Shown here piece by piece: positions 37,429 to 64,000 of a DNA stretch of 64,000 bases. Position numbers and translations under genes: made by a program. The notes below the pieces were generated by a model. The model was not told the DNA's origin. It did not search any database and worked only from the letters and a program-made list of their open reading frames with translations. The first letter of the stretch is position 1, and each line of letters begins with the position of its first letter. This DNA comes from Hydrogenophaga sp. BPS33 (GTDB lineage Bacteria > Pseudomonadota > Gammaproteobacteria > Burkholderiales > Burkholderiaceae_C), in the NCBI RefSeq assembly GCF_009859475.1, contig NZ_CP044550.1, positions 124,001 to 188,000 on the forward strand, read 5' to 3'.

Positions 37429-40400
37429 GGGGTCTCCTCGTTTTCAGTGCAATAAGTGACGGTACGAAAAGCTAGCACTGGCGCGAAGGTGGTGTTGGTA
37501 GATCGTTGATTTCATTGACTTTCCTGTTCACTTTCAAATCTGCGATTCGTGGCGTCAAACCGTGGTCGGTTTCATCCATTGGTGCCAGTTATCGATGCAT
37601 TTGGCCGCGAAGGCAGGATTTGGTCAGCATAGCGGTCAACCGGGAAGCGAAACACACCCCGCAAGTTGATGCTCTCCAGCCTGGTGGGCGCAATCTTCCC
37701 GATCAGTTCCGGTGGAATGACCTGGCGGCGGTTCGACCAGCGATCCAGGACCGCCTGCATCTGTGAGGTATTCCACGCCATCACGATGTTGGCCATCAGG
37801 CTCAACGCATCGGCCACAGCCTGCATTTCATCGACACGTTTGGCCTGCGCCGGGCTGATCCGGCCGGTATAAATGGCGCGCTTGAGGGCGTTAACAGCCT
37901 CGCCCCGATTGAGCACCCGGCGCAACTCGTTCCTGAAAGCGTCCTTGACAAAGTAGTCAGCCAAAAACGCCGTACGCAGCAACCGCCCCAATTGCACGCC
38001 AGCCTCATAGATTGGATCGCCCTGGGCGGCAGAACCGAACCGCGCAAGAGCTGCCACCGCACTGGCATGTCCGCTCATGACCGAGGCTGCCAGGTGCACC
38101 AGACTATCCCAATGCTTTTCGATCAAAGCGACGTCGACATTGGCTTCGCACACCGCAGCGATTTCTGCGGGCACTTTGGTGCCGCGTGGCACAAAGAGGT
38201 GGCGCTGTTTGAGTTCCTTCAACCGCGGGCAAAGATCAAAACCAAGCAAACGGGCATGTGACATGGCAAAGTCGGTGTAGCCATGGGTATCCACAGCAAG
38301 CTGGCTGGTCTCCAGCTTTTCTTGGCGGATGACACCTTCAATGGCCACGCCCGCCTGGCGCTCATTGAGCACAAAGGGCTGCGCATGGAAGATGCCCCAC
38401 CGGTCTTTTACATGGGAGTAGATTCCAATGGAAGGTGTGTTGCGCCGAGGATCAAGCCGGGCTTGCCACACCCGTTTGGTGGTCTCCATGCTCATCATGT
38501 CAGAAGATGCCAAATCGGACCGCCCCCAGGTGGCGGCAATCGGGTGTCGCTGCATGAATTCCAGCACAGCCTGGCAGGCCTGGCTCAGACGCCGTTCGTC
38601 CCGCGCCCAGCGCATGGCCTGGCGAATGCTGGTGGCAGACAATTGCGGAATCATGCGCGCGCATTCGACCGCAGTCAGACTGGTGCCGTGGGCCATGATG
38701 CCGGCATAGACCATCAGCAGCTCGTCGGTAGAGCGCGGCTCACGTCCGAGCATGATCCAGCTAAAGCGCACCTGGGCGTCAACGGCCAGAATCACTTCCG
38801 GCAATTGAACCTCACCGATGCGGTGATCCAAAGCCGCGCGCAGCTTGGTCACTTCTGGGTCTTCGTCCTCTGCGGGCAATGGCGACAAATGGAGTTCATC
38901 ATCCACGCGCAGTACGCCACTGCGGGCTGCAGCGGCCACCGCATCGACACCGGCAGTTACTCTGGCCAGCAAAGGCTTCAAGAAAGTGGCAGCCTTGCTG
39001 GGTAACGATAGACGGGCATAGTGTTTCTTGGACTCTGCCTGCCAACGCTCGTCCGTGAAGAACAAGCGCGCACGACCCCGAAAGCTCAGGCTGTGCTCAA
39101 TCCAGACCGAGCCATTGCGCACCGCGCGGCGCAGGGCAAACAGGGTGGCCACCTCCAACGCCTGAAACGCCCGTTCCCGGTCTGGGCTGGAGATCGAAAC
39201 CTGCCAGATCATTCCCAGACTTGGTGCCACCACTTCAACTGGCAGCTTTCTGGATCCTTTGAGATATAAAGCTTGCAGCTTGGCAAGGTACTCGATGGCA
39301 GGATGCTCGCCGGTGGCCTGCCAGGGCAGCTTTGCAATGGCGACGAGCAACGACCGCACGGGGCGAATTCCATCAATCAATCCCTCGCGGACCAGGGAGG
39401 CCCTGCTCGGTGGTTTGCGTTTCTGGGTTTCGGTGATCAAGGCTTCAAGACGGGCACGCAACTCAGCATCTGGCACCGCACCTTGCGCGCTCAAGGCAAC
39501 AAGTTCGCCGAGCAGCGTTTTGTACATTGCGGCCCAATTGACGGTAGCGGGGACATCGGCGGCAGCCTGACGCCACAGATCGGCGATCCGGCGCTGCACC
39601 ATAAGGATCAACTGGTCTGTGGTGGTGAACAGGCAATACCGAAGAAAGCATGCGACCTCCACGGTGCGCGCTGGCTCTTTGATCTTGGCTCCGGCTGAGG
39701 GCGGCCTGGAGACAAGTCGGCGCGCGTAGCGGCGCAAGATGAGATCGGGGATGTCTGCCAGGTGCTTATGAACGTCCAGCGTGTAAAGCAGGTCGATGCG
39801 CTCCAGTACCTCGCTGATTTGGCGGGTTGAGTGTTTCGCCGGTGCAGCCCATAGCCAACTCTGCTGGGTTTGTCCATCTGGGCGCAGCTCTGAAACTGAG
39901 GCTCGCCAGCGATCAAGTGTTGCTGGATCAACGCTGGCGGCGATGGCGGTGCCTGTTTCAACTTCAAGCTGGGCAAGTGCCGCCGCAATCAGTGTCCGAA
40001 TTGCCCGCTCGTGCACGATCACCAGCTTGTTCTTGTACAGCCATTGACGCGCCCGCACGAGTAGCTGATCGCGGTCGGCGCAGCGCGCCACTTCGTCGCG
40101 CAGTTCACGTACCAGTGAGCGGCGCTGGTGCTCGCTCATCCACTGGAATCCAAGGACCGTGCAGGCTACTTGTTGGTGATCGAATAGCGTGCGCCCGCGT
40201 TCATACATGGCTCTCAGCGAGGCGACTTCTGGTGCTGCAATGCCAAGCTCGTTGCCAAGGTGGCGCCACAAGGCTACTGGAATTACCCGAAAGGCACCGA
40301 GCAAACGCCCACTCATGCGCAGGAAACCAATATGGAGCGCCAGACCAAGCTTGTGGGAATCACCTCGGCGTGCATTGATTGCGTCGCGCTCGGCACCATC

Positions 40401-40632
40401 GAAGGTGAAAAATGCCTTCATCTCGAAGTCGCTGATATCGCGGGGGAGCCCACGCATCCCCAAAAACGTTGTGTGCCAACCCTGCATCGTGAACCTCAAA
40501 AGTGGGAGGCCACCATACCCGTTTACAAAGCGAACAGGAAAGTCAATGAAATCAACGGTCTACCCAGACCACCCCCGCGCCAGTGCTAGCTTTGCGTACC
40601 GTCACTTATTGCACTGAAAACGAGGAGACCCC
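37429..40632 (-). mobile_element. IS1071 copy 1
   Basis: 3,204 bp, the exact known size of IS1071, beginning GGGGTCTCCTCGTTTTCAGT and ending in its inverted complement; the inverted repeats extend about 110 bp. It carries only a transposase, no resolvase, as known for this Tn3-family element. The outer left flank is GCTTC; no matching 5-bp duplication is seen at its right end, as expected if it is one end of a composite transposon. Confidence 0.95.
37572..40499 (-). CDS. tnpA: IS1071 transposase (Tn3 family)
   Basis: 975 residues (971 from the second Met). It carries Tn3-transposase catalytic-region motifs: LAVDTHGYTDFAMSHARLLGFDLCPR (first Asp), a helical ALIEKHWDSLVHLAASV, and NRGEAVNALKRAIYTG...MANIVMAWNTSQMQAVL toward the C-terminus with the Glu. 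It catalyses replicative transposition; IS1071 elements mobilise as class I composites. Intact in copies 1 and 2. Confidence 0.95.
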   Translation of the reverse strand: MRFTMQGWHTTFLGMRGLPRDISDFEMKAFFTFDGAERDAINARRGDSHKLGLALHIGFLRMSGRLLGAFRVIPVALWRHLGNELGIAAPEVASLRAMYERGRTLFDHQQVACTVLGFQWMSEHQRRSLVRELRDEVARCADRDQLLVRARQWLYKNKLVIVHERAIRTLIAAALAQLEVETGTAIAASVDPATLDRWRASVSELRPDGQTQQSWLWAAPAKHSTRQISEVLERIDLLYTLDVHKHLADIPDLILRRYARRLVSRPPSAGAKIKEPARTVEVACFLRYCLFTTTDQLILMVQRRIADLWRQAAADVPATVNWAAMYKTLLGELVALSAQGAVPDAELRARLEALITETQKRKPPSRASLVREGLIDGIRPVRSLLVAIAKLPWQATGEHPAIEYLAKLQALYLKGSRKLPVEVVAPSLGMIWQVSISSPDRERAFQALEVATLFALRRAVRNGSVWIEHSLSFRGRARLFFTDERWQAESKKHYARLSLPSKAATFLKPLLARVTAGVDAVAAAARSGVLRVDDELHLSPLPAEDEDPEVTKLRAALDHRIGEVQLPEVILAVDAQVRFSWIMLGREPRSTDELLMVYAGIMAHGTSLTAVECARMIPQLSATSIRQAMRWARDERRLSQACQAVLEFMQRHPIAATWGRSDLASSDMMSMETTKRVWQARLDPRRNTPSIGIYSHVKDRWGIFHAQPFVLNERQAGVAIEGVIRQEKLETSQLAVDTHGYTDFAMSHARLLGFDLCPRLKELKQRHLFVPRGTKVPAEIAAVCEANVDVALIEKHWDSLVHLAASVMSGHASAVAALARFGSAAQGDPIYEAGVQLGRLLRTAFLADYFVKDAFRNELRRVLNRGEAVNALKRAIYTGRISPAQAKRVDEMQAVADALSLMANIVMAWNTSQMQAVLDRWSNRRQVIPPELIGKIAPTRLESINLRGVFRFPVDRYADQILPSRPNASITGTNG

Positions 40633-40921
40633 CAGAAACTCCTTGTGGGTTTGGCGGCGGCAACGAGTTCGACATCCAGCGACGGTGTGAGCAGCTCGTG
40701 CGATCGCGGGCCGTATGCCGCTTCCGCCCACTCGTAGGAAGTGCCGACCTCGTTCGCGAACGACTGCACGGTGGGAACGCGATTCGCTTGGCTCCATCGC
40801 GCCGCGTTAACGATCTGGGCGACATAACGGTCCACCAGGTCCGGCCGCTCCTTCACAAGCTGCGCGCTCACTGTCAGCGTGGCGGGCTGCTGGTTGCTGC
40901 CGCGAACGTGGGGGTCGGGGT
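40633..40921 (-). pseudogene. ABC transporter substrate-binding protein fragment, copy 1
   Basis: An internal fragment reading DPHVRGSNQQPATLTVSAQLVKERPDLVDRYVAQIVNAARWSQANR..., the pattern of NMT1/SsuA-type periplasmic binding proteins (VVNxxFxxxHPDxV). The C-terminal end is cut by IS1071 and the N-terminal side by a junction at about 40921 with a gene fragment on the other strand. Not functional. Confidence 0.6.
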
Positions 40922-41827
40922 GGTCGCCCCATCGACCTCTTCCCGCGCAAGGCATGGTGCCGCCTCGCCACGCGCCATGCGAAGAACCTGCTGTCCGAGG
41001 ACATGCTGCCGCATGACCGGGCCGGCCACCCGCGGCTGCGCGAAGCCGTCGCCAATCGCGTGAGGCTCGTGCGCGGCGGTGTGCAGGTCGTCCCGTTTCC
41101 GTGCATGGCAGGGAGCACCGCCGCCCTGCCTTCGGCGAAGCTCGCCATCTGTTGCCCGGCCGACTTTGCGTTCACGGGCGAGCCATGGAGCGCGGACGCG
41201 CTCGCGGAGCTGGTCGGGTGGTCGCGCAAGCACGCGGGCTGGCTGGTCGAAGACGACCGTGACCTCGACCTGTACGAAACGGGCCCGCATGAAGCGGTCC
41301 TTGCCCGGGGCGCAAGCGCCGAACGAACGATCTATCTCGGCTCGTTCGAGCGCAGCGTGTTCCCCGAGGTGGGCTGCGGCTTCATCGTCGCTCCCCACGA
41401 ACTGGTCCAGTCTTTCTCCGCCGCTGCGCAGCAGCAGGCGTACAACTCGCCGCTGCAGATGCAGCGCACGCTGTTTGATTTCATCACGCAAGGCTATATC
41501 GGGCGTCACGCCAACCGGCTTCGCAAAGCCCATGGGGAGCGGCGCAAGGCGGCGCTGGCGGCCTTGCGCAGGGGCGCTTTCACGGGAGATCTCTCGTTCC
41601 AGGCCGCGGGTTCCTACCTGGTGGCGAGCTTTCGAAACGTGAGCGAACCGGGGCTGCTGGAACGCGCTCTCGAAGAAAATCGCGTCGGGGCGCGCGTGCT
41701 TGCGCGTCCAGGCAGGCGTGAGCAGCTGCTGCTGGTGGGCTATGCAGGCGCGCCGCGTGAAGAGCTCTTCGCCGCGATCGGCGTGCTCGACGCGCTGCTT
41801 ACGCGATCTTGCCGCCGAGTGACTTGA
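40922..41827 (+). pseudogene. MocR/PdxR-type aminotransferase domain remnant, copy 1
   Basis: The frame reads GRPIDLFPRKAWCRLATRHAK...GHPRLREAVANRVRLVRGG, then WLVEDDRDLDLYETGP and IYLGSFERSVFPEVGCGFIVAP, the fold-type I aminotransferase half of GntR/MocR regulators. The N-terminal wHTH is missing, a central block (the usual GSQQALDL to EDPGY region) is deleted, and the PLP-binding Lys expected in GTFSKxLFP is Arg. It is almost certainly a remnant. An ATG at 41003 could still express 274 residues. Its end overlaps the opposing receptor gene by 29 bp. Confidence 0.6.
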
Positions 41828-42761
41828 CGACCGCCGCCCACTTTTTCATGTCGGCCTGGATGAACGCGTCGAACTGCGCCGGCGTGGATGCGGCCGGCAC
41901 CATGCCCTGGGTCGCCATCCAGGAAGACACGGCGGGGTCTTCCATCGCTTTCTTGATGGCCTGGTGGATCTGGGCCAACACCGCGGGCGGCGTTGCCCGT
42001 GGCGCGATGACCCCGAAGTAGCTTTCCACGTTGAATCCCTTCACCGTGTCCCCGATCGGGGCGGCGTCGGGGAAACCGGGGAGCCGCCGCGGTCCGGCCG
42101 GCGCCACCAGCTTCACGCGGCCCGCTTGCACCATCGGCAGTTGGGAAATGAACGAGTCGAAGAGCAGCGTGAGCCGGCCGCCGATCAGGTCCTGCTGCGC
42201 GGGGGCGCTGCCCTTGTAGGGCACGTGAACCAGGTCCACGCCGGCCAGCTGGTTCAGCATCAGGCCGGCGAGGTGCGACGTCGAACCGAGTCTCGCCGAG
42301 CCGTAGCTCAGCGTCTTCGGGTTCTTCTTCGCATAGGCGACGAGTTCCGCAACGTTGTTCACGGGCAGGCTGGGTGTGGCAAAGAGCGCGATCGGCAGCG
42401 TGCTGATCAGCGTCACGCCGGCAAGATCCTTCACCGTGTCATACGGCAGTTGCGCCATGATGCTCGGGTTCACCGCGAGCGATGGGATCACGAGCGCGAT
42501 CGTATGCCCGTCGGGCGCCGCCTTCGCGACGAGGTCGGTCCCGATCACCGTGCCGCCGGGTTTGTTCTCGACAACCACCGCCTGGCCCCACGCGGCCTGC
42601 ATCCGCTGGGCAAGCATGCGCGTGAGCGCGTCGGCGGAACCGCCGGGCGGGAACGGCACGATGAAGCGCACGGGCTGTGTCGGGAACGTGTTGGCAAAGG
42701 CCGGCATCGCACCTGCGAGCAAGGTGAGGGCGAGCGCGAGGATGGGTCTTCTGGCAAGCAT
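41799..42761 (-). CDS. TTT-family (Bug/TctC) periplasmic receptor, distal gene, copy 1
   Basis: 320 residues. A signal peptide (MLARRPILALALTLLAGAMPAFA) precedes TFPTQPVRFIVPFPPGGSADALTRMLAQRM, the hallmark start of TctC/Bug receptors. Conserved YGSARLGSTSHLAGLM and VHVPYKGSAPAQQDLIGG follow. ATG 42761 has AGGAGA 8 nt upstream; the frame is open further but without homology. Family members bind carboxylates, often aromatic acids, in the periplasm. No TctA/TctB membrane genes are here, so it would need a host transporter. It is the last gene of the oxygenase operon, 183 bp after the reductase. Confidence 0.9.
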   Translation of the reverse strand: MLARRPILALALTLLAGAMPAFANTFPTQPVRFIVPFPPGGSADALTRMLAQRMQAAWGQAVVVENKPGGTVIGTDLVAKAAPDGHTIALVIPSLAVNPSIMAQLPYDTVKDLAGVTLISTLPIALFATPSLPVNNVAELVAYAKKNPKTLSYGSARLGSTSHLAGLMLNQLAGVDLVHVPYKGSAPAQQDLIGGRLTLLFDSFISQLPMVQAGRVKLVAPAGPRRLPGFPDAAPIGDTVKGFNVESYFGVIAPRATPPAVLAQIHQAIKKAMEDPAVSSWMATQGMVPAASTPAQFDAFIQADMKKWAAVVKSLGGKIA

Positions 42762-42944
42762 GGCGTTGTCTCCTGGGCATTGCGGCGCGGAAAACGCGCC
42801 TGATGCTCCGCATGCTACGCAGCGGCGACCAGAGCACCTACGGCCAACCGCCATCAAAACTTGCAGGCCAAGGGACGGTCCGATGCCTGGCTGTGCCGTG
42901 TGGGTTCGGGCGCGCAACGCCCGGTCCACGAGTCGCGCAAGCAT

Positions 42945-43886
42945 CTAAAGATCGAGCACCAACTCCTCGGTCAACGAGCCCGAGCAGCAGATCAACATGC
43001 TCTTGCCGTGTGTTCGCTCCTCCTCGGAGAGGACGCAATCGCGATGGTCTGGACGGCCCGCGAGAACCGCGGTCTCACATGCCCCGCAGACCCCCTGCTG
43101 ACAGGAAGACTGCACCGGGATGCCCCGCTGCCGGAGCGATTCCAGAATCGTGCATCCCTTCTGGATTCGGATCTCCTGATTGCTGCGGGCAAGTCGGACG
43201 AGGTAGCCTCCGTCGCGCGACTGCATTTCCTTTGCCTTGAAGCGCTCCAGATGAAGGCGCTCCTTCGGGAGGTGCACGCAGGCGCTCTCGACGCACTCCA
43301 GCATTGACTCCGGTCCGCAGCAGTAGATGTGCGCCCCTTTCGGCGCCTTCGCGACGATGGAGTGGATGTCCAGGCGCGGGGTCCCGGCGTCCTCGCTGAA
43401 GCTCACATGGACGCGCCCGCCCAACCGGGGAGACGACAGGCAGTCAAGGAACGCCGTCGTCTTGCGGCTGCGGCCTCGCATGTACATGGTCCAGGGCTTG
43501 CGCAACGCCTCGAGCCTTTGAGCCATGCTCCACAGCGGCGTGATTCCAATTCCTCCGGCAATGAAGACGCTATGGGCAGCATCCTCCTCGAGAGCAAAGT
43601 TGTTGCGCGGCCCGGCGATGTCGAGCAGCGTCCCGGCCTGGACATGGGCATGCATCGAAGCCGAACCGCCTCGACCCTGGGCCTCACGCTTGACGCCGAC
43701 AACGTACCTGTGGCGATCCGACGGATCGTTGGCGAGCGAATAGCTGCGCACGATGCCGCCGGGAATGGTCACGTCAATATGCGCCCCCGCCTCGAACGGC
43801 GGCAGCTGTTGGCCATCGGCGCTGCGGATGTCGTAGATCAGCACGTCATCGGCGCCGTACGTTATCGAATGCACGCGGGCTTTCAT
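42945..43886 (-). CDS. Oxygenase reductase (FMN/NAD/2Fe-2S), copy 1
   Basis: 313 residues with class IA (phthalate dioxygenase reductase-like) order: flavin domain with RSYSLAND, nucleotide domain with GGIGITP and CCGPESM, and a C-terminal plant-type ferredoxin with CQQGVCGACETAVLAG...DC. All four cysteines for the 2Fe-2S cluster are visible. It passes electrons from NADH to the Rieske oxygenase encoded upstream in the same operon. Confidence 0.9.
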   Translation of the reverse strand: MKARVHSITYGADDVLIYDIRSADGQQLPPFEAGAHIDVTIPGGIVRSYSLANDPSDRHRYVVGVKREAQGRGGSASMHAHVQAGTLLDIAGPRNNFALEEDAAHSVFIAGGIGITPLWSMAQRLEALRKPWTMYMRGRSRKTTAFLDCLSSPRLGGRVHVSFSEDAGTPRLDIHSIVAKAPKGAHIYCCGPESMLECVESACVHLPKERLHLERFKAKEMQSRDGGYLVRLARSNQEIRIQKGCTILESLRQRGIPVQSSCQQGVCGACETAVLAGRPDHRDCVLSEEERTHGKSMLICCSGSLTEELVLDL

Positions 43887-43963
43887 GATTCCCCCATACG
43901 GCGTGACGCTACAGTTGGATCAAGTTCGTTCGCGGTGGCCCGGTGACGGGCTCTTGACGAGAA

Positions 43964-44959
43964 CTACTTGTCAAGAGATATCCCGGCTTTCTGGATCACC
44001 CCGCCCCATCTCTTGTATTCCGACTTCAGATAAACATCGAACTCCTCCGGCGAGAGGCCGCGGGCTTCGACACCCAGCTCCTTGAGCTTATCCTGCACTT
44101 CGCGAAGCCCCAGCACCTGGCGAATCTCGTCGGCCAGCTTGTGCCTGATCTCGATCGGTGTCCCTGCCGGGGCCACGACCGCGTACCAGGGTCCCGAGAC
44201 GATCGCCGGATAGCCAGCCTCGGCGAAAGTGGGAACGTTCGGCAGCACGGCGCTGCGCCTGGTGGAAGCGATAGCGATCGGGCGCAATTGCCCCGAAACG
44301 ATTCGCGGCACAAGATTGATGGTGTCACCTATCATCAGGCTGACACGCCCCGCGAGAACATCGGTGAGCGCCGGCGGAAAACCCTGATACGCGACATGCG
44401 TCAGCGCGGTGCCGGCCTGCTGGTTGATCAATTCGCCCGTGACATGGCCTGTCGTCCCGATGCCCTGAGTCGCGAATGTCATCTTTTCGGGATTGGCTTT
44501 GGCGAAGTTGCGCAGTTCCTCGAAGCTGGAAACCGGCAGCTGCCTGCTCGCGACGAGCACGTTCGGCGCCTCGACCACGACCGTCACGGGCGCAAATGTT
44601 GTCGCGTCGTACGGCAGGCGCTTCATCAGGAAGGGGTTGAGCACCAACGGCCCTTGCGCGGTGAAAAGTAGCGTGTACCCATCCGCCGGAGCCCTGGCCA
44701 CAAGATCAGTACCGACCGTTCCACCGGCGCCCGTGCGGTTCTCCACCACGATCGGTTGATTCAGACGGGTTTCGAGGTGTCTGCCCACCAGGCGTGCCAG
44801 CACATCGATGGAACCGCCCGCCGTGAATGGAACGACGAACCGGACTGGCTTGGACGGCCACACCTCCTTGGTCTGGGCGTGCGCGTTGCACAGGATGGCC
44901 GAGGCGAACAACGCCACGGCAAGCCTCAAGGAAATTCCACACTTCGATATCCGTTTCAC
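43964..44959 (-). CDS. TTT-family (Bug/TctC) periplasmic receptor, proximal gene, copy 1
   Basis: 331 residues from GTG 44959 with AAGGAGA 6 nt upstream. A signal peptide (about 25 residues, ending CNAHA) precedes the conserved WPSKPVRFVVPFTAGGSIDVLARLVGRHL. It differs substantially from the distal receptor, so the two probably bind different ligands or the same ligand with different affinity. It follows the Rieske gene by 32 bp. The open frame upstream of the GTG varies between copies because of a G-run change near 44985, which lies outside the true gene. Confidence 0.9.
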   Translation of the reverse strand: MKRISKCGISLRLAVALFASAILCNAHAQTKEVWPSKPVRFVVPFTAGGSIDVLARLVGRHLETRLNQPIVVENRTGAGGTVGTDLVARAPADGYTLLFTAQGPLVLNPFLMKRLPYDATTFAPVTVVVEAPNVLVASRQLPVSSFEELRNFAKANPEKMTFATQGIGTTGHVTGELINQQAGTALTHVAYQGFPPALTDVLAGRVSLMIGDTINLVPRIVSGQLRPIAIASTRRSAVLPNVPTFAEAGYPAIVSGPWYAVVAPAGTPIEIRHKLADEIRQVLGLREVQDKLKELGVEARGLSPEEFDVYLKSEYKRWGGVIQKAGISLDK

Positions 44960-44991
44960 AGCTGTCTCCTTGCGTACTGTCTTGGGGGGCA

Positions 44992-46272
44992 CTATCGGGC
45001 ATCGGGCACTGTTGCCGGATGGCTTCCCGCCTGTTCAGGTGTGATATCCATCGGAAGCAGAATGGCAATGGCGCGGTGCTTGTAGAGTTCGCCGCGCTTC
45101 GCCGCCGTCGGGACGGTTCCGTCATTTGCGAACTTCTTCGCAACCTCGAGGAGGCGTCTGCGGCATTTCACGATCGCGGTGTCCGAGGTACCCAAGTGCT
45201 CCTTGGTCCGGTCTGCGATCGGCCCCTGGCTCTCCTGCACGGCGAGGTCCTGAAGTTGGGCACTCGGAATTCCGGTGAATGAGCCGCGTCTCTGCAGATC
45301 CCGATCCATCAGGTAATCGTTCGCGCGGTTCCCCTGCGGAATGTAGGTGCCCGGGATCAATCTCGCGTAATCCAGATTTCCAGTCTTGTATTCCGCCAGC
45401 TCGTCACTGCCAAGAGGACGTCCGACGTGATAGCGGACGCGATACCACCAGCAGTTTTCGTCGTCGATGGCAATGAACAGATTGGCTCTGCACACCAGCC
45501 CCTCGGCTGTGGGCACCAACACGTAGTTGGGCATCAACCACTGGGTGATGCGCCAGTAGTAGTTGCCGTTACCCCCGTCCCTTCGTGCGGAGATTCGCAT
45601 TCCGAAGTCGGTGTCTTCGCAGAAGAACCGCGGCGCCCCATCCGCATCCCCGAATTCCTGAAGATTGCCCACGGCAAAGACGTCCTTCTCCATCGGGGCC
45701 ATGGAATGGTGCAGGAAGGTCAGGTGGGCCGTGTCGATACTGCCCTCGAGTGCCTGCAGATAGTTGCACTTCATCAGGCACTTGGAAACATGGACGTTCT
45801 GCGGAGGAAGGCTCATGAATTCCATGTCGGGCAAAGCCGGCATGGACTCTTGCGGGCCGAGATACGCCCAGATGATGCCGCCCGCTTCCCGCACGGGATA
45901 CGCCTTTGCACGCAGATTCGGGTTGCAGCGCATGGGGCTTCCTTGCGGTTCGCTGGGCATGTCGAGGATTTCACCCGCCACGCTGAACTTCCAGCCGTGA
46001 TAGACGCAACGAAGACCGCCCTCCTCGTTGCGGCCGAAGAACAGGTCCGCGAGTCGGTGGGGGCAATGCGCGTCGAGCAACCCCACTTTGCCGCTGGAGT
46101 CGCGAAAGGCGACAAAGTCTTCCCCCATCAGCCGCACGCGAACCGGCGGACAGTCCGCTACGGGCAATTCCTCGGAGAGCAGCGCGGGCTGCCAAAACTG
46201 CCGGAACACCCGTCCCATGGCAGCGCCTGGACCCATCCGAGTCAAGGTCTCATTGCTCTCGGAATTCGACAT
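44992..46272 (-). CDS. Rieske-type aromatic ring-hydroxylating oxygenase large subunit, copy 1
   Basis: 426 residues. Rieske centre CPHRLADLFFGRNEEGGLRCVYHGW (C-x-H...C-x2-H) at about 70-94. The mononuclear iron site shows LQALEGSIDTAHLTFLHH with its two His, and the third ligand would be a downstream Asp. A C-terminal SQGPIADRTKEHLGTSDTAIVKCRRRLLEVAK is typical of the phthalate 4,5-dioxygenase/3-chlorobenzoate dioxygenase/phenoxybenzoate dioxygenase group, which works as oxygenase plus reductase. AAGGAGA precedes the ATG. Substrate not deducible. A MarR-type regulator diverges upstream. Confidence 0.9.
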   Translation of the reverse strand: MSNSESNETLTRMGPGAAMGRVFRQFWQPALLSEELPVADCPPVRVRLMGEDFVAFRDSSGKVGLLDAHCPHRLADLFFGRNEEGGLRCVYHGWKFSVAGEILDMPSEPQGSPMRCNPNLRAKAYPVREAGGIIWAYLGPQESMPALPDMEFMSLPPQNVHVSKCLMKCNYLQALEGSIDTAHLTFLHHSMAPMEKDVFAVGNLQEFGDADGAPRFFCEDTDFGMRISARRDGGNGNYYWRITQWLMPNYVLVPTAEGLVCRANLFIAIDDENCWWYRVRYHVGRPLGSDELAEYKTGNLDYARLIPGTYIPQGNRANDYLMDRDLQRRGSFTGIPSAQLQDLAVQESQGPIADRTKEHLGTSDTAIVKCRRRLLEVAKKFANDGTVPTAAKRGELYKHRAIAILLPMDITPEQAGSHPATVPDAR

Positions 46273-46291
46273 ACCCGATCTCCTTCAAAAT

Positions 46292-46310
46292 TAGTAGCGG
46301 TTCGCTATTA
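46292..46310. promoter_or_regulatory. MarR-type operator, copy 1
   Basis: Inverted repeat TAGTAGCG-GTT-CGCTATTA with 7 of 8 arm positions paired. It overlaps the -10 element of the oxygenase promoter, so binding would block RNA polymerase. Confidence 0.65.
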
Positions 46311-46335: not shown

Positions 46336-46361
46336 CTGCGGTGGCCCCATAGAATCAACGG

Positions 46362-46841: not shown

Positions 46842-46868
46842 AGGCTCACATGTTTCGCGCTGCGCTGG

Positions 46869-54773: not shown

Positions 54774-55769
54774 CTACTTGTCAAGAGATATCCCGGCTTT
54801 CTGGATCACCCCGCCCCATCTCTTGTATTCCGACTTCAGATAAACATCGAACTCCTCCGGCGAGAGGCCGCGGGCTTCGACACCCAGCTCCTTGAGCTTA
54901 TCCTGCACTTCGCGAAGCCCCAGCACCTGGCGAATCTCGTCGGCCAGCTTGTGCCTGATCTCGATCGGTGTCCCTGCCGGGGCCACGACCGCGTACCAGG
55001 GTCCCGAGACGATCGCCGGATAGCCAGCCTCGGCGAAAGTGGGAACGTTCGGCAGCACGGCGCTGCGCCTGGTGGAAGCGATAGCGATCGGGCGCAATTG
55101 CCCCGAAACGATTCGCGGCACAAGATTGATGGTGTCACCTATCATCAGGCTGACACGCCCCGCGAGAACATCGGTGAGCGCCGGCGGAAAACCCTGATAC
55201 GCGACATGCGTCAGCGCGGTGCCGGCCTGCTGGTTGATCAATTCGCCCGTGACATGGCCTGTCGTCCCGATGCCCTGAGTCGCGAATGTCATCTTTTCGG
55301 GATTGGCTTTGGCGAAGTTGCGCAGTTCCTCGAAGCTGGAAACCGGCAGCTGCCTGCTCGCGACGAGCACGTTCGGCGCCTCGACCACGACCGTCACGGG
55401 CGCAAATGTTGTCGCGTCGTACGGCAGGCGCTTCATCAGGAAGGGGTTGAGCACCAACGGCCCTTGCGCGGTGAAAAGTAGCGTGTACCCATCCGCCGGA
55501 GCCCTGGCCACAAGATCAGTACCGACCGTTCCACCGGCGCCCGTGCGGTTCTCCACCACGATCGGTTGATTCAGACGGGTTTCGAGGTGTCTGCCCACCA
55601 GGCGTGCCAGCACATCGATGGAACCGCCCGCCGTGAATGGAACGACGAACCGGACTGGCTTGGACGGCCACACCTCCTTGGTCTGGGCGTGCGCGTTGCA
55701 CAGGATGGCCGAGGCGAACAACGCCACGGCAAGCCTCAAGGAAATTCCACACTTCGATATCCGTTTCAC
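54774..55769 (-). CDS. Proximal TTT receptor, copy 2
   Basis: 331 residues from GTG 55769 with AAGGAGA upstream, same protein as in unit 1. The G-run near 55795 has one G fewer than in unit 1, which lengthens the open frame upstream but not the gene. Confidence 0.9.
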   Translation of the reverse strand: MKRISKCGISLRLAVALFASAILCNAHAQTKEVWPSKPVRFVVPFTAGGSIDVLARLVGRHLETRLNQPIVVENRTGAGGTVGTDLVARAPADGYTLLFTAQGPLVLNPFLMKRLPYDATTFAPVTVVVEAPNVLVASRQLPVSSFEELRNFAKANPEKMTFATQGIGTTGHVTGELINQQAGTALTHVAYQGFPPALTDVLAGRVSLMIGDTINLVPRIVSGQLRPIAIASTRRSAVLPNVPTFAEAGYPAIVSGPWYAVVAPAGTPIEIRHKLADEIRQVLGLREVQDKLKELGVEARGLSPEEFDVYLKSEYKRWGGVIQKAGISLDK

Positions 55770-55800
55770 AGCTGTCTCCTTGCGTACTGTCTTGGGGGCA

Positions 55801-57081
55801 CTATCGGGCATCGGGCACTGTTGCCGGATGGCTTCCCGCCTGTTCAGGTGTGATATCCATCGGAAGCAGAATGGCAATGGCGCGGTGCTTGTAGAGTTCG
55901 CCGCGCTTCGCCGCCGTCGGGACGGTTCCGTCATTTGCGAACTTCTTCGCAACCTCGAGGAGGCGTCTGCGGCATTTCACGATCGCGGTGTCCGAGGTAC
56001 CCAAGTGCTCCTTGGTCCGGTCTGCGATCGGCCCCTGGCTCTCCTGCACGGCGAGGTCCTGAAGTTGGGCACTCGGAATTCCGGTGAATGAGCCGCGTCT
56101 CTGCAGATCCCGATCCATCAGGTAATCGTTCGCGCGGTTCCCCTGCGGAATGTAGGTGCCCGGGATCAATCTCGCGTAATCCAGATTTCCAGTCTTGTAT
56201 TCCGCCAGCTCGTCACTGCCAAGAGGACGTCCGACGTGATAGCGGACGCGATACCACCAGCAGTTTTCGTCGTCGATGGCAATGAACAGATTGGCTCTGC
56301 ACACCAGCCCCTCGGCTGTGGGCACCAACACGTAGTTGGGCATCAACCACTGGGTGATGCGCCAGTAGTAGTTGCCGTTACCCCCGTCCCTTCGTGCGGA
56401 GATTCGCATTCCGAAGTCGGTGTCTTCGCAGAAGAACCGCGGCGCCCCATCCGCATCCCCGAATTCCTGAAGATTGCCCACGGCAAAGACGTCCTTCTCC
56501 ATCGGGGCCATGGAATGGTGCAGGAAGGTCAGGTGGGCCGTGTCGATACTGCCCTCGAGTGCCTGCAGATAGTTGCACTTCATCAGGCACTTGGAAACAT
56601 GGACGTTCTGCGGAGGAAGGCTCATGAATTCCATGTCGGGCAAAGCCGGCATGGACTCTTGCGGGCCGAGATACGCCCAGATGATGCCGCCCGCTTCCCG
56701 CACGGGATACGCCTTTGCACGCAGATTCGGGTTGCAGCGCATGGGGCTTCCTTGCGGTTCGCTGGGCATGTCGAGGATTTCACCCGCCACGCTGAACTTC
56801 CAGCCGTGATAGACGCAACGAAGACCGCCCTCCTCGTTGCGGCCGAAGAACAGGTCCGCGAGTCGGTGGGGGCAATGCGCGTCGAGCAACCCCACTTTGC
56901 CGCTGGAGTCGCGAAAGGCGACAAAGTCTTCCCCCATCAGCCGCACGCGAACCGGCGGACAGTCCGCTACGGGCAATTCCTCGGAGAGCAGCGCGGGCTG
57001 CCAAAACTGCCGGAACACCCGTCCCATGGCAGCGCCTGGACCCATCCGAGTCAAGGTCTCATTGCTCTCGGAATTCGACAT
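55801..57081 (-). CDS. Rieske oxygenase large subunit, copy 2
   Basis: 426 residues, identical to the unit 1 protein; intact Rieske and iron-binding motifs. Confidence 0.9.
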   Translation of the reverse strand: MSNSESNETLTRMGPGAAMGRVFRQFWQPALLSEELPVADCPPVRVRLMGEDFVAFRDSSGKVGLLDAHCPHRLADLFFGRNEEGGLRCVYHGWKFSVAGEILDMPSEPQGSPMRCNPNLRAKAYPVREAGGIIWAYLGPQESMPALPDMEFMSLPPQNVHVSKCLMKCNYLQALEGSIDTAHLTFLHHSMAPMEKDVFAVGNLQEFGDADGAPRFFCEDTDFGMRISARRDGGNGNYYWRITQWLMPNYVLVPTAEGLVCRANLFIAIDDENCWWYRVRYHVGRPLGSDELAEYKTGNLDYARLIPGTYIPQGNRANDYLMDRDLQRRGSFTGIPSAQLQDLAVQESQGPIADRTKEHLGTSDTAIVKCRRRLLEVAKKFANDGTVPTAAKRGELYKHRAIAILLPMDITPEQAGSHPATVPDAR

Positions 57082-57100
57082 ACCCGATCTCCTTCAAAAT

Positions 57101-57119
57101 TAGTAGCGGTTCGCTATTA
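57101..57119. promoter_or_regulatory. MarR-type operator, copy 2
   Basis: Same inverted repeat TAGTAGCG-GTT-CGCTATTA as in unit 1, overlapping the -10 of the oxygenase promoter. Confidence 0.65.
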
Positions 57120-57144
57120 TTGGGTCGTCGTTCATGGCTGTCAA
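57116..57144 (-). promoter_or_regulatory. Sigma-70 promoter of oxygenase operon, copy 2
   Basis: TTGACA-N17-AATAAT, as in unit 1. Confidence 0.65.
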
Positions 57145-57170
57145 CTGCGGTGGCCCCATAGAATCAACGG

Positions 57171-57650
57171 ATGCGTACCCCGAACAGCGTCCCTCTCGAA
57201 AACAGGATTTCCTACCGTTGTCTTTCGATCGCCACGCGCATCACGCGCTTTCTTGCGCCGAGGTGGAAGGATGAGTTCGGCCTGACGGTGATCGGTTGGC
57301 GAGTCATGGCGGTCATCGGTCGATTCGAGCCGATCTCTGCCAAGGAAGTGGCCGCGAGGACGAGCACGGACGCCTTCTTCGTTGCCCGCGCAATCGAAAA
57401 GCTGGTCGAACAGGGCTATGTCAAGAAGGCAGTGGACATGCATGACAGGAGGCGCCTGAGCTTGAGCCTGTCCACGCCCGGCAAAAAGGTCCACCGGCAC
57501 GTCGAGGCCATGATCAGTCAGGTGGAGGCCGACCTGCTTGCCGAAGTTTCGGCGGCGGATGCGAAGACTTTCTTCCACGTGATGTCGGTTCTCGGGGACC
57601 GCGCCGCACGACTGAGTGCTCCGGACGCTGCGTCCGGAGAAGCCGCCTGA
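57171..57650 (+). CDS. MarR-family regulator, copy 2
   Basis: 159 residues, identical to the unit 1 regulator. Doubling the regulator together with its operators keeps their ratio constant. Confidence 0.9.
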   Translation: MRTPNSVPLENRISYRCLSIATRITRFLAPRWKDEFGLTVIGWRVMAVIGRFEPISAKEVAARTSTDAFFVARAIEKLVEQGYVKKAVDMHDRRRLSLSLSTPGKKVHRHVEAMISQVEADLLAEVSAADAKTFFHVMSVLGDRAARLSAPDAASGEAA

Positions 57651-57677
57651 AGGCTCACATGTTTCGCGCTGCGCTGG

Positions 57678-58013
57678 TCATTGCGCCAGCACGCTGGCGA
57701 CACGCTCTTTCTCGGTGAGCGTTGGGCCACGGCGCGATCCAAGGAATTTCGCTTGGGCGTACTGCCCGATCAGAATGGTGAGTTCGACCCGCGGCATGAG
57801 CGCGAAAATCCGGTCATGCCACAGTGGCGCGCATTCAGGACGCGGCGGCAAGTCGCCTCCAGCACCTCGCCCGGGATAACACATCCCCATTGGAACGATC
57901 GCGCACTTGCGCACGTCATGGAACGTTGCGTCATCCACTCCCAGCCATTCGCGCAGGCGCTTGCCACTGGCGTCATTCCAGGGGACGCCGCTCCCATTCC
58001 TGTTGGCGGTCAT
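57678..58013 (-). pseudogene. Uracil-DNA glycosylase fragment, copy 2
   Basis: Same truncated central piece as in unit 1, lacking both conserved terminal motifs. Confidence 0.65.
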
Positions 58014-58026
58014 CGGACTGCTTCGG

Positions 58027-58896
58027 TCATGGTGGCTGCAAGATGAACGCACTACGACCTACCATTCGAACCCGGCCCTGACACACCAGCACCGCGGCCG
58101 CGATCAAGTTCGCGTCGAGCAGCTCGCGAGCCTTGGCCTCCCCGGCGTCCAGGGCGTCGTGCACCACGGTTTCCGGGAGAGCCGGTACGGCCACTGTCAC
58201 GAGGCGGTCGCCCAAGTCCGAATCCGGTTGCAACTCCCGGGCAGGCCGGCGAACGACAAGCGGGTGATCGACGTTGACCGCGTTGGCGACCGCTGTTGCG
58301 GCGGCGTCCGCCTGCGCAGCCGTCAATGCGAGGATGGTCACACTGTCCGCGATGCCGAGCGAGAAGCTCCGCCCCGGCCATCCACTCGTCGCAACACCAC
58401 GGACTGGGTTCGCGGCATCGATGTTCAGGTGGAGCCGTTTTCCGGGATCGTGTGCCGCGTGCGGATCAGAGATGTCGGGCACAACCGCAATGCGCATTCG
58501 TTCGCCCGCTTCAAGATGCAGGGCAATGTCGCCTCCGTTGTTGATGGCGGCTCGCCTGACACCGGCAGTCCGATAGAAATCCACGATTTCATCCGAGACG
58601 GATCCGGCCACGGCCGCCATCGGCGTGATGAAGTCGCGCGCGAATGGACGACAAGCGCTCCACATTCGCCGGGCGACAGGGCCCACCATCCCGCATTGGA
58701 CTCGCGGGTCGATCGCTTGCCGAAGGTCGGGAAGTTCGGCGACCAATTCCGGCAGGATCTGCCCGAAACGTGCCCAGGCCTTCGCGTGGGCTTCTTCGAT
58801 CACGGCGCTCTCGCCCAGCGCGAAGATCACCAGGTCGATGGGACCGTGCTGGAAGTGGATACGGCCCTGATCGAGCCGGCCGCATACAGGGCCCAC
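58027..58896 (-). CDS. UPF0280 (ApbE-like) protein, copy 2
   Basis: 289 residues from GTG 58896, identical to unit 1, again 1 bp after the stop of the truncated upstream gene. Confidence 0.75.
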   Translation of the reverse strand: MGPVCGRLDQGRIHFQHGPIDLVIFALGESAVIEEAHAKAWARFGQILPELVAELPDLRQAIDPRVQCGMVGPVARRMWSACRPFARDFITPMAAVAGSVSDEIVDFYRTAGVRRAAINNGGDIALHLEAGERMRIAVVPDISDPHAAHDPGKRLHLNIDAANPVRGVATSGWPGRSFSLGIADSVTILALTAAQADAAATAVANAVNVDHPLVVRRPARELQPDSDLGDRLVTVAVPALPETVVHDALDAGEAKARELLDANLIAAAVLVCQGRVRMVGRSAFILQPP

Positions 58897-58897
58897 G

Positions 58898-59046
58898 TCA
58901 TTCGCCGATCGTACGCACCTCGTAGCCCCGCGGCGGCGCCTGCAGTGCTGTCCGGGCACGGCTCAACGCGGCATCGACGGAAAACACCTGGTCGCTGTGG
59001 CCGCCGAAGTCGAGGTAGTCCGCCATGGTCATCGAGAATTCGATGG
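58898..59046 (-). pseudogene. C-terminal fragment of an unidentified gene, copy 2
   Basis: Same 49-codon tail, cut by IS1071 copy 3 at exactly the same base as in unit 1. Confidence 0.5.
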
Positions 59047-62000
59047 GGGGTCTCCTCGTTTTCAGTGCAATAAGTGACGGTACGAAAAGCTAGCACTGGC
59101 GCGGAGGTGGTGTTGGTAGATCGTTGATTTCATTGACTTTCCTGTTCACTTTCAAATCTGCGATTCGTGGCGTCAAACCGTGGTCGGTTTCATCCATTGG
59201 TGCCAGTTATCGATGCATTTGGCCGCGAAGGCAGGATTTTGGTCAGCATAGCGGTCAACCGGGAAGCGAAACACACCCCGCAAGTTGATGCTCTCCAGCC
59301 TGGTGGGCGCAATCTTCCCGATCAGTTCCGGTGGAATGACCTGGCGGCGGTTCGACCAGCGATCCAGGACCGCCTGCATCTGTGAGGTATTCCACGCCAT
59401 CACGATGTTGGCCATCAGGCTCAACGCATCGGCCACAGCCTGCATTTCATCGACACGTTTGGGCCTGCGCCGGGCTGATCCGGCCGGTATAAATGGCGCG
59501 CTTGAGGGCGTTAACAGCCTCGCCCCGATTGAGCACCCGGCGCAACTCGTTCCTGAAAGCGTCCTTGACAAAGTAGTCAGCCAAAAAACGCCGTACGCAG
59601 CAACCGCCCCAATTGCACGCCAGCCTCATAGATTGGATCGCCCCTGGGCGGCAGAACCGAACCGCGCAAGAGCTGCCACCGCACTGGCATGTCCGCTCAT
59701 GACCGAGGCTGCCAGGTGCACCAGACTATCCCAATGCTTTTCGATCAAAGCGACGTCGACATTGGCTTCGCACACCGCAGCGATTTCTGCGGGCACTTTG
59801 GTGCCGCGTGGCACAAAGAGGTGGCGCTGTTTGAGTTCCTTCAACCGCGGGCAAAGATCAAAACCAAGCAAACGGGCATGTGACATGGCAAAGTCGGTGT
59901 AGCCATGGGTATCCACAGCAAGCTGGGCTGGTCTCCAGCTTTTCTTGGCGGATGACACCTTCAATGGCCACGCCCGCCTGGCGCTCATTGAGCACAAAGG
60001 GCTGCGCATGGAAGATGCCCCACCGGTCTTTTACATGGGAGTAGATTCCAATGGAAGGTGTGTTGCGCCGAGGATCAAGCCGGGCTTGCCACACCCGTTT
60101 GGTGGTCTCCATGTCATCATGTCAGAAGATGCCAAATCGGACCGCCCCCAGGTGGCGGCAATCGGGTGTCGCTGCATGAATTCCAGCACAGCCTGGCAGG
60201 CCTGGCTCAGACGCCGTTCGTCCCGCGCCCAGCGCATGGCCTGGCGAATGCTGGTGGCAGACAATTGCGGAATCATGCGCGCGCATTCGACCGCAGTCAG
60301 ACTGGTGCCGTGGGCCATGATGCCGGCATAGACCATCAGCAGCTCGTCGGTAGAGCGCGGCTCACGTCCGAGCATGATCCAGCTAAAGCGCACCTGGGCG
60401 TCAACGGCCAGAATCACTTCCGGCAATTGAACCTCACCGATGCGGTGATCCAAAGCCGCGCGCAGCTTGGTCACTTCTGGGTCTTCGTCCTCTGCGGGCA
60501 ATGGCGACAAATGGAGTTCATCATCCACGCGCAGTACGCCACTGCGGGCTGCAGCGGCCACCGCATCGACACCGGCAGTTACTCTGGCCAGCAAAGGCTT
60601 CAAGAAAGTGGCAGCCTTGCTGGGTAACGATAGACGGGCATAGTGTTTCTTGGACTCTGCCTGCCAACGCTCGTCCGTGAAGAACAAGCGCGCACGACCC
60701 CGAAAGCTCAGGCTGTGCTCAATCCAGACCGAGCCATTGCGCACCGCGCGGCGCAGGGCAAACAGGGTGGCCACCTCCAACGCCTGAAACGCCCGTTCCC
60801 GGTCTGGGCTGGAGATCGAAACCTGCCAGATCATTCCCAGACTTGGTGCCACCACTTCAACTGGCAGCTTTCTGGATCCTTTGAGATATAAAGCTTGCAG
60901 CTTGGCAAGGTACTCGATGGCAGGATGCTCGCCGGTGGCCTGCCAGGGCAGCTTTGCAATGGCGACGAGCAACGACCGCACGGGGCGAATTCCATCAATC
61001 AATCCCTCGCGGACCAGGGAGGCCCTGCTCGGTGGTTTGCGTTTCTGGGTTTCGGTGATCAAGGCTTCAAGACGGGCACGCAACTCAGCATCTGGCACCG
61101 CACCTTGCGCGCTCAAGGCAACAAGTTCGCCGAGCAGCGTTTTGTACATTGCGGCCCAATTGACGGTAGCGGGGACATCGGCGGCAGCCTGACGCCACAG
61201 ATCGGCGATCCGGCGCTGCACCATAAGGATCAACTGGTCTGTGGTGGTGAACAGGCAATACCGAAGAAAGCATGCGACCTCCACGGTGCGCGCTGGCTCT
61301 TTGATCTTGGCTCCGGCTGAGGGCGGCCTGGAGACAAGTCGGCGCGCGTAGCGGCGCAAGATGAGATCGGGGATGTCTGCCAGGTGCTTATGAACGTCCA
61401 GCGTGTAAAGCAGGTCGATGCGCTCCAGTACCTCGCTGATTTGGCGGGTTGAGTGTTTCGCCGGTGCAGCCCATAGCCAACTCTGCTGGGTTTGTCCATC
61501 TGGGCGCAGCTCTGAAACTGAGGCTCGCCAGCGATCAAGTGTTGCTGGATCAACGCTGGCGGCGATGGCGGTGCCTGTTTCAACTTCAAGCTGGGCAAGT
61601 GCCGCCGCAATCAGTGTCCGAATTGCCCGCTCGTGCACGATCACCAGCTTGTTCTTGTACAGCCATTGACGCGCCCGCACGAGTAGCTGATCGCGGTCGG
61701 CGCAGCGCGCCACTTCGTCGCGCAGTTCACGTACCAGTGAGCGGCGCTGGTGCTCGCTCATCCACTGGAATCCAAGGACCGTGCAGGCTACTTGTTGGTG
61801 ATCGAATAGCGTGCGCCCGCGTTCATACATGGCTCTCAGCGAGGCGACTTCTGGTGCTGCAATGCCAAGCTCGTTGCCAAGGTGGCGCCACAAGGCTACT
61901 GGAATTACCCGAAAGGCACCGAGCAAACGCCCACTCATGCGCAGGAAACCAATATGGAGCGCCAGACCAAGCTTGTGGGAATCACCTCGGCGTGCATTGA

Positions 62001-62254
62001 TTGCGTCGCGCTCGGCACCATCGAAGGTGAAAAATGCCTTCATCTCGAAGTCGCTGATATCGCGGGGGAGCCCACGCATCCCCAAAAACGTTGTGTGCCA
62101 ACCCTGCATCGTGAACCTCAAAAGTGGGAGGCCACCATACCCGTTTACAAAGCGAACAGGAAAGTCAATGAAATCAACGGTCTACCCAGACCACCCCCGC
62201 GCCAGTGCTAGCTTTGCGTACCGTCACTTATTGCACTGAAAACGAGGAGACCCC
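59047..62254 (-). mobile_element. IS1071 copy 3
   Basis: 3,208 bp, 4 bp longer than copies 1 and 2 because of five single-base insertions and one deletion, all between 59237 and 60115. Ends and orientation are the same. Confidence 0.9.
59190..62121 (-). pseudogene. tnpA: IS1071 transposase, copy 3, multiply frameshifted
   Basis: The N-terminal 675 or so residues (62121 down to about 60115) match copies 1 and 2. The catalytic C-terminal part is broken by six single-base indels: extra T near 59240, G near 59463, A near 59588, C near 59644, G near 59930 and a missing G near 60113. All are in short homopolymers, which points to sequencing or assembly error as much as to real decay. Confidence 0.85.
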
Positions 62255-62543
62255 CAGAAACTCCTTGTGGGTTTGGCGGCGGCAACGAGTTCGACATCCA
62301 GCGACGGTGTGAGCAGCTCGTGCGATCGCGGGCCGTATGCCGCTTCCGCCCACTCGTAGGAAGTGCCGACCTCGTTCGCGAACGACTGCACGGTGGGAAC
62401 GCGATTCGCTTGGCTCCATCGCGCCGCGTTAACGATCTGGGCGACATAACGGTCCACCAGGTCCGGCCGCTCCTTCACAAGCTGCGCGCTCACTGTCAGC
62501 GTGGCGGGCTGCTGGTTGCTGCCGCGAACGTGGGGGTCGGGGT
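62255..62543 (-). pseudogene. ABC substrate-binding protein fragment, copy 3
   Basis: Same fragment and same junctions as in units 1 and 2. Confidence 0.6.
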
Positions 62544-63449
62544 GGTCGCCCCATCGACCTCTTCCCGCGCAAGGCATGGTGCCGCCTCGCCACGCGCCAT
62601 GCGAAGAACCTGCTGTCCGAGGACATGCTGCCGCATGACCGGGCCGGCCACCCGCGGCTGCGCGAAGCCGTCGCCAATCGCGTGAGGCTCGTGCGCGGCG
62701 GTGTGCAGGTCGTCCCGTTTCCGTGCATGGCAGGGAGCACCGCCGCCCTGCCTTCGGCGAAGCTCGCCATCTGTTGCCCGGCCGACTTTGCGTTCACGGG
62801 CGAGCCATGGAGCGCGGACGCGCTCGCGGAGCTGGTCGGGTGGTCGCGCAAGCACGCGGGCTGGCTGGTCGAAGACGACCGTGACCTCGACCTGTACGAA
62901 ACGGGCCCGCATGAAGCGGTCCTTGCCCGGGGCGCAAGCGCCGAACGAACGATCTATCTCGGCTCGTTCGAGCGCAGCGTGTTCCCCGAGGTGGGCTGCG
63001 GCTTCATCGTCGCTCCCCACGAACTGGTCCAGTCTTTCTCCGCCGCTGCGCAGCAGCAGGCGTACAACTCGCCGCTGCAGATGCAGCGCACGCTGTTTGA
63101 TTTCATCACGCAAGGCTATATCGGGCGTCACGCCAACCGGCTTCGCAAAGCCCATGGGGAGCGGCGCAAGGCGGCGCTGGCGGCCTTGCGCAGGGGCGCT
63201 TTCACGGGAGATCTCTCGTTCCAGGCCGCGGGTTCCTACCTGGTGGCGAGCTTTCGAAACGTGAGCGAACCGGGGCTGCTGGAACGCGCTCTCGAAGAAA
63301 ATCGCGTCGGGGCGCGCGTGCTTGCGCGTCCAGGCAGGCGTGAGCAGCTGCTGCTGGTGGGCTATGCAGGCGCGCCGCGTGAAGAGCTCTTCGCCGCGAT
63401 CGGCGTGCTCGACGCGCTGCTTACGCGATCTTGCCGCCGAGTGACTTGA
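62544..63449 (+). pseudogene. MocR-type aminotransferase remnant, copy 3
   Basis: Same remnant as in units 1 and 2, without further damage. Confidence 0.6.
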
Positions 63450-64000
63450 CGACCGCCGCCCACTTTTTCATGTCGGCCTGGATGAACGCGTCGAACTGCG
63501 CCGGCGTGGATGCGGCCGGCACCATGCCCTGGGTCGCCATCCAGGAAGACACGGCGGGGTCTTCCATCGCTTTCTTGATGGCCTGGTGGATCTGGGCCAA
63601 CACCGCGGGCGGCGTTGCCCGTGGCGCGATGACCCCGAAGTAGCTTTCCACGTTGAATCCCTTCACCGTGTCCCCGATCGGGGCGGCGTCGGGGAAACCG
63701 GGGAGCCGCCGCGGTCCGGCCGGCGCCACCAGCTTCACGCGGCCCGCTTGCACCATCGGCAGTTGGGAAATGAACGAGTCGAAGAGCAGCGTGAGCCGGC
63801 CGCCGATCAGGTCCTGCTGCGCGGGGGCGCTGCCCTTGTAGGGCACGTGAACCAGGTCCACGCCGGCCAGCTGGTTCAGCATCAGGCCGGCGAGGTGCGA
63901 CGTCGAACCGAGTCTCGCCGAGCCGTAGCTCAGCGTCTTCGGGTTCTTCTTCGCATAGGCGACGAGTTCCGCAACGTTGTTCACGGGCAGGCTGGGTGTG
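63421..64000 (-). CDS. Distal TTT receptor, copy 3, partial
   Basis: The C-terminal 190 or so residues of the receptor, cut by the window end. It has the intact reading (GAGCCGCCGCGG) as in unit 1, not the frameshift of unit 2. Confidence 0.85.
   Translation of the reverse strand, partial: TPSLPVNNVAELVAYAKKNPKTLSYGSARLGSTSHLAGLMLNQLAGVDLVHVPYKGSAPAQQDLIGGRLTLLFDSFISQLPMVQAGRVKLVAPAGPRRLPGFPDAAPIGDTVKGFNVESYFGVIAPRATPPAVLAQIHQAIKKAMEDPAVSSWMATQGMVPAASTPAQFDAFIQADMKKWAAVVKSLGGKIA

Follow-up and report, generated by a model that had tools for sequence, protein, structure and literature searches.

How does a plasmid come to carry the same oxygenase operon several times over, head to tail, between copies of a single insertion sequence? 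The question is raised by a stretch of 64,000 nucleotides (the window) from plasmid pBPS33-1 of Hydrogenophaga sp. BPS33, a linuron degrader. The window covers plasmid positions 124001–188000, a window position being the plasmid position minus 124000. The genome has three contigs, described as a chromosome of 6.33 Mbp and the plasmids pBPS33-1 (340 kbp) and pBPS33-2 (107 kbp) (PMC7039861; published sources are cited here and below from the parts of them that were covered). In the assembly the plasmids measure 339,634 and 106,879 bp and the whole genome 6,772,294 bp. The right-hand part of the window belongs to a block of directly repeated units, each made of IS1071 and an oxygenase operon. We consider it probable that this block began with one insertion into a plasmid gene, and that modules were then joined, and one unit multiplied, by recombination at IS1071.

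Comparison of the window with itself gives two long matches, of 37429–53188 with 48238–64000 (99.93% identity) and of 37429–42378 with 59047–64000 (99.86%). Matches of this length are not a matter of chance. They contain three direct copies of IS1071, with starts at 37429, 48238 and 59047, each 10,809 bp apart, and two complete cargo segments (40633–48237 and 51442–59046), both of 7,605 bp and with the same junctions; here the sequence-only reading that preceded this analysis was right. The repeat unit is one IS1071 (3,204 bp) plus one cargo of 7,605 bp, and adjoining units have one IS1071 copy in common. The features of the block within the window are as follows.

37424–37428, no strand: GCTTC, the left one of the two copies that make up the 5-bp target duplication; the other adjoins the last IS1071 on its right, at plasmid positions 238313–238317, beyond the window
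37429–40632, minus strand: IS1071 copy 1, with tnpA at 37572–40499 on the minus strand; 99.97% identical to the IS1071 of pAKD15
40633–48237, minus strand: cargo unit 1, complete, 7,605 bp
48238–51441, minus strand: IS1071 copy 2, with G at IS position 1063
51442–59046, minus strand: cargo unit 2, of complete length, with two single-base indels
59047–62254, minus strand: IS1071 copy 3, 3,208 bp; in the assembly its tnpA frame is disrupted by five insertions and a deletion
62255–64000, minus strand: start of cargo unit 3, which runs on beyond the window to plasmid position 193859

The array does not stop at the edge of the window, and the "two and a fraction units" counted from the window have to be revised to three units, a gap of 18,051 bp, one further unit and a truncated unit. 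With the sequence around the window included, pBPS33-1 has seven IS1071 copies, which share one orientation and begin at plasmid positions 161429, 172238, 183047, 193860, 215115, 225924 and 235109. Between them lie, in order, the first three cargos, an unrelated module of 18,051 bp, cargo 4 and cargo 5, the whole block being 76,884 bp long (BLAST rows below 120 bp for the IS, and below 150 bp, were left out of the mapping). Cargos 1–4 are complete, and cargo 5 is cut at base 5,981. The left cargo junction is the same to the base in all five units, and the right junction in all four full units. The units are identical, head to tail and with one repeat at each junction, as in a tandem amplification, and two IS1071 copies bound the cargo, which would be a composite transposon if it also moved as a unit; an IS1071-bounded catabolic unit in direct repeat, as first proposed, is what the plasmid contains. 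A search of the strain's own genome with the cargo gave 44 matches; apart from the cargo copies, the remaining 39 are short and 65–81% identical.

The identity of the insertion sequence is clear. Its transposase belongs to the Tn3 family (NF033527, 911.7 bits against a cut-off of 500; PF01526), and the 99.97% identity to the annotated IS1071 of pAKD15 extends over 3,204 bp. The terminal inverted repeats of IS1071 are about 110 bp long; here the two ends match in inverted orientation over about 106–107 bp at 93–94%. The transposase gene is full-length in six of the seven copies of the block, that of copy 3 being broken by indels.

Elements of the Tn3 family duplicate 5 bp of their target, and the flanks of the seven copies were compared in all 49 left/right pairs. 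The sole agreement is between the left flank of copy 1 and the right flank of copy 7, both GCTTC (for one given pair, chance agreement is about 1 in 1,000, assuming equal base frequencies). No single IS1071 copy on pBPS33-1 has a 5-bp duplication of its own among these pairs. When the outer flanks are joined with one GCTTC, a frame of 126 amino acids runs across the scar. Of 67 genomes of the genus, 11 have a match to this frame, BPS33 itself counted, as do three records of the plasmid collection, at below 60%. The two best homologues outside BPS33 align across the scar without stops, at 79% (residues 1–108) and 74% (residues 5–107). The comparison indicates that the IS1071-bounded insertion split a real gene. 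A sister plasmid whose site is still empty was looked for with both flanks. Nine records matched the left flank (12,428 bp), none of them covering above 8%, and no record matched the right flank (5,688 bp); the evidence for the empty site is therefore the joined frame, together with its homologues. From the sole outer GCTTC pair and the restored frame, it follows that one insertion opened the site. Since GCTTC is confined to the outer ends, the inner junctions carry no insertion footprint, which, together with their exactness, fits recombination at shared IS1071 copies.

The units are almost without differences. Among the five cargo copies (four full, one partial) there are no substitutions, and the only indels are a single-base insertion and a single-base deletion in unit 2. 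IS1071 copy 3 has five single-base insertions, each of which extends a run, and one deletion, so that its length, first given as 3,204 bp, is corrected to 3,208 bp. Only two substitutions occur among the seven IS1071 copies of the block: a silent A at position 58 in copy 1, and a C/G difference at position 1063 (S670T), where copy 2 and four of the five aligned pBPS33-2 copies have G (the alignment holds 12 of the 13 copies, the interrupted pBPS33-2 copy being left out). The deletion in copy 3 falls exactly at position 1063. The shared G was considered as a sign of exchange between pBPS33-1 and pBPS33-2 but does not prove one: G is also present in Variovorax PBL-H6 copies, and C in the copies of pAKD15, Delftia and Diaphorobacter. 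The genome was obtained from 15-kb PacBio RSII libraries assembled with HGAP3 and corrected with Illumina reads (PMC7039861). Judged by this method of assembly, the unit-specific indels look like sequencing residue; they may have persisted because short reads that stem from a faulty copy of the repeat align better with the sister copies that are correct. The unit-specific differences had been used to argue against copies of one consensus, but this argument fails, nearly all of them being single-base indels of this kind.

We propose the following history. A single IS1071-bounded insertion, marked by the GCTTC duplication, would have entered a gene of pBPS33-1, and further IS1071-bounded modules would then have joined it through homologous recombination with the IS1071 already in place. 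Multiplication of the 10,809-bp oxygenase unit may have come about by unequal crossing-over between direct IS1071 repeats, presumably through RecA, or by reintegration of an excised IS–cargo circle. The outcome is five operon copies, every one of which has a promoter-like site of its own; the 18-kb catabolic module parts them into two groups. The right end of the last unit was probably lost through an IS1071-linked deletion, by which MarR was truncated and the operon left whole. Recombination between direct repeats had already been suggested from the window, and the exact junctions, the near-identity of the units and the single outer target duplication fit it, the part of the suggestion that drew on unit differences being lost. 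A second IS1071-linked direct duplication in the strain, non-tandem and 7.5 kb long, is present on pBPS33-2 and also counts for recombination.

Several points weigh against this history. The 15-kb libraries hardly span the three-unit array of 35.6 kb, so the exact number of units is uncertain. IS1071 copies 1 and 2 differ from the others by substitutions, and the copies are therefore not all of one immediate origin. Several of the weaker homologues of the 126-residue frame contain stops, the frame being moderately conserved beyond the two best. Finally, a transposase-linked route leaves the same sequence. By that route, which we consider unlikely, the array would have been multiplied by the IS1071 transposase and not by RecA, through replicative cointegrates or through an IS–cargo circle aimed at a resident IS1071, as for IS26. 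IS1071 transposition reportedly starts with cointegration (PMC7039861), targeted cointegrates are described for IS26 (PMC10433875), and the six full-length tnpA genes would be available for it. However, no targeted reaction was found for IS1071 in the parts of the literature covered, and plain recombination over 3.2 kb of identity requires no special activity.

A little less likely again is that the number of units is an effect of assembly, the layout of three plus two units standing for a shorter array, for several plasmid variants mixed together or for an excised circle. The length of the libraries assembled with HGAP3, set against that of the near-identical array, speaks for it, as does the concentration of indel residue in IS1071 copy 3 and cargo 2; the sister strain PBL-H3, moreover, has two plasmid variants, with an insert in only 25% of the plasmids (PMC7039861). 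Yet the units right of the 18-kb module stand apart from the triple array, both ends of the array are anchored in unique DNA, and the substitutions in IS1071 copies 1 and 2 distinguish them. It is very improbable that each unit arose by a separate transposition of an IS1071 composite into a neighbouring site. Such composites are known mobile catabolic units (PMC7039861), but there is no inner 5-bp duplication, adjoining units have an IS1071 copy in common, and the inner junctions are exact to the base. One insertion followed by recombination at IS1071 is the explanation that we prefer.

The genes that would have been multiplied are listed below for cargo unit 1.

41003–41827, plus strand: MocR-like remnant without the N-terminal part; residues 45–261 match the C-terminal part of PdxR (224–446 of 448)
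41799–42944, minus strand: TctC-type solute receptor 1 (PF03401)
42945–43886, minus strand: oxygenase reductase with FAD/NAD and 2Fe-2S domains (PF00111, PF00970, PF00175)
43964–44992, minus strand: TctC-type solute receptor 2 (PF03401)
44992–46272, minus strand: Rieske oxygenase of LigXa_C type, 426 aa (PF00355, PF19301); nearest solved relative 9INA
46307–46335, minus strand: promoter-like site TTGACA-17-AATAAT, with its end about 35 bases upstream of the Rieske start codon
46362–46841, plus strand: MarR-family regulator, 159 aa, divergent from the oxygenase
46869–47243, minus strand: small UDG-like protein (PF03167, 1.2e-6)
47218–48150, minus strand: PRK04334 protein of unknown function (NF003322, 370.2 bits against a curated cut-off of 290)

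The operon on the minus strand thus runs Rieske oxygenase, TctC, reductase, TctC, with the MocR-like remnant at the left edge of the cargo. The Rieske and LigXa_C domains, and the adjoining reductase with Fer2, FAD and NAD domains, place the system in the phthalate-dioxygenase/LigXa type. The motif search that gave the promoter-like site found two sites, where 0.1 were expected from shuffles. The oxygenase and reductase genes are intact in all five units. TctC 1 is broken by the indels of unit 2, which also disturb the start of TctC 2. In unit 5 (plasmid positions 229128–238312) MarR is cut after residue 84 of 159 and everything beyond is lost, while the operon and its promoter-like site are retained; the block therefore holds five operons to four regulator genes.

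The solved structure nearest to the Rieske protein, 9INA (E 1.3e-102, aligned over residues 3–412), is an isophthalate dioxygenase (PMC12445078). The enzyme of Comamonas testosteroni KF1 (9INA, 9IOY) is an oxygenase of the same type and has in common with the cargo protein the carboxylate-binding R234, whereas its V178, F249 and H257 are replaced in the cargo protein by L, A and N (residue positions were assigned manually from the alignment, the numbering being shifted by 23). With three of the four binding residues different, the cargo protein was not accepted as an isophthalate dioxygenase, and isophthalate is an unlikely substrate. A fair guess, from the sequence comparison, is that the substrate is some aromatic carboxylate. 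A benefit from raised gene dosage on such a compound, with selection for the oxygenase, is plausible.

The 18,051-bp module has genes for electron transfer flavoprotein subunits, TctC, an acyl-CoA dehydrogenase, an enoyl-CoA hydratase, two thiolase-like and two OB-fold proteins, a CoA-transferase III, 3-oxoacid CoA-transferase A and B, and a HsaD/BphD-like hydrolase, together with three transposase genes of types other than IS1071. This looks like the chemistry of a lower pathway.

Outside the block, the plasmid backbone has an actin-like (ParM-type) gene near the insertion site (window 35452–36627) and, further left, a phage-integrase-like gene (32496–33989). A scan of the window gave no Rfam match and no tRNA. 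A diverged tandem repeat, with offsets of about 141 and 282 bp and 78–80% identity, lies at 117470–118523 of pBPS33-1.

Relatives of the cargo were compared at the DNA level at 12 loci. One is a 5,268-bp contig of the metagenome-assembled genome (MAG) SZAS-79, which encodes a Rieske protein of 100% identity. The contig equals cargo positions 3382–7605 at 100% and extends a further 1,044 bp past the point at which the plasmid sequence passes into IS1071, from which it appears that the right edge of the cargo was made by IS1071. Past this edge it has a further open frame, which matched no Pfam family. A sister lineage of the oxygenase, of about 77% DNA identity over the oxygenase gene, is found in several places. 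On pAKD15 it lies close to the plasmid's only IS1071; in Ottowia thiooxydans and Hydrogenophaga borbori it is on contigs of which both ends fall within IS1071; and a MAG contig that carries it has IS1071 on one side. At the same level of similarity, a contig from Caenimonas lacks a clear IS1071. Contigs 23 and 22 of H. borbori, with IS1071 ends on both sides, each have a different Rieske oxygenase of the family. The cargo has no match in the plasmid collection, from which records of the BPS33 genome itself may be excluded, and in 39 relatives (seven candidates scored per genome) the best match extends over 506 of the 7,605 bases, with 67% identity.

Composite catabolic transposons of IS1071 are known from plasmids such as pTSA and pCNB1 (PMC7494797). 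pAKD15 resembles pBPS33-1 in having IS1071, a catabolic cargo, a plasmid carrier and the related oxygenase operon, but it has a single IS1071 and one operon, whereas in pBPS33-1 the unit is repeated head to tail. pBPS33-2, in the same strain, is described as having six IS1071, with catabolic clusters in series parted by single copies (PMC7039861), and six copies are found in its sequence. Its island and those of PromA relatives (PMC7039861) are like the block in their serial clusters between IS1071; there, however, the modules differ from one another with no equal spacing, while on pBPS33-1 one module recurs. The 7.5-kb duplication on pBPS33-2 (49057–56525 and 74568–82038, 99.92% identity) comprises IS1071 and a pyruvate-ferredoxin-oxidoreductase-like gene pair. 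Another pBPS33-2 copy, at 28807–32192, is interrupted by 182 extra bases, apparently a miniature element with inverted ends of about 17 bp (CCTAGAAACGGCAGTTG) and a TTTAT duplication. Truncated transposases on this plasmid have been ascribed to point mutations (PMC7039861).

The spacing of IS1071 was also surveyed in 19 other plasmid records: 18 with at least six matched places, taken from the 60 listed of 191 (LR594674 left out), and pAKD15. An array was scored where at least two neighbouring same-strand pairs were equally spaced within 20 bp, a measure that arrays of unequal units would escape. None of the 19 has two equal spacings, 12 of them having enough pairs for the test; pBPS33-1 has four and pBPS33-2 none. 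The pADP-1 record shows no equal spacing either. Precedents reported for atzB on pADP1 and tfd on pJP4 are not used as evidence. Variovorax PBL-H6, with a spacing of 16.55 kb, was considered as a precedent and rejected, the alignment (BLAST rows below 400 or 200 bp left out) showing an inverted duplication with an amidase gene. On plasmid unnamed1 of Delftia acidovorans FDAARGOS_891 (18926–40009), an inverted duplication of IS1071-linked modules has a gene make-up like that of the pBPS33-1 block, with Rieske, CoA-transferase, thiolase, OB-fold and TctC genes.

No published head-to-tail IS1071 array was found in a limited search of parts of the literature, which is a weak negative, and the sections covered of Werner et al. 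2020 (PMC7039861), the one paper in the collection searched that names pBPS33-1, do not describe the block. Amplification by recombination between two flanking IS copies is a canonical structure (PMC13423834). The structure here is the same, but it occurs in a sequenced plasmid from nature, and a foreign module sits within the array. The kind of event is already known, and the pBPS33-1 arrangement is a good new example of it.

The block thus offers a clean natural case in which direct IS1071 repeats have seemingly given a catabolic operon a higher copy number; the host comes from a pesticide biopurification system. Its history is bounded by one 5-bp target duplication, and the order of events is therefore testable. 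Such arrays may be undercounted, since related cassettes lie on short contigs that end inside IS1071 on both sides, where copy number is invisible. We tentatively suggest, as a possibility rather short of even odds, that IS1071 serves as a hub for docking and dosage, at whose resident copies later modules entered, were multiplied and were trimmed without new target duplications. If so, both the gene content and the dosage of such an island would be changeable by recombination alone.

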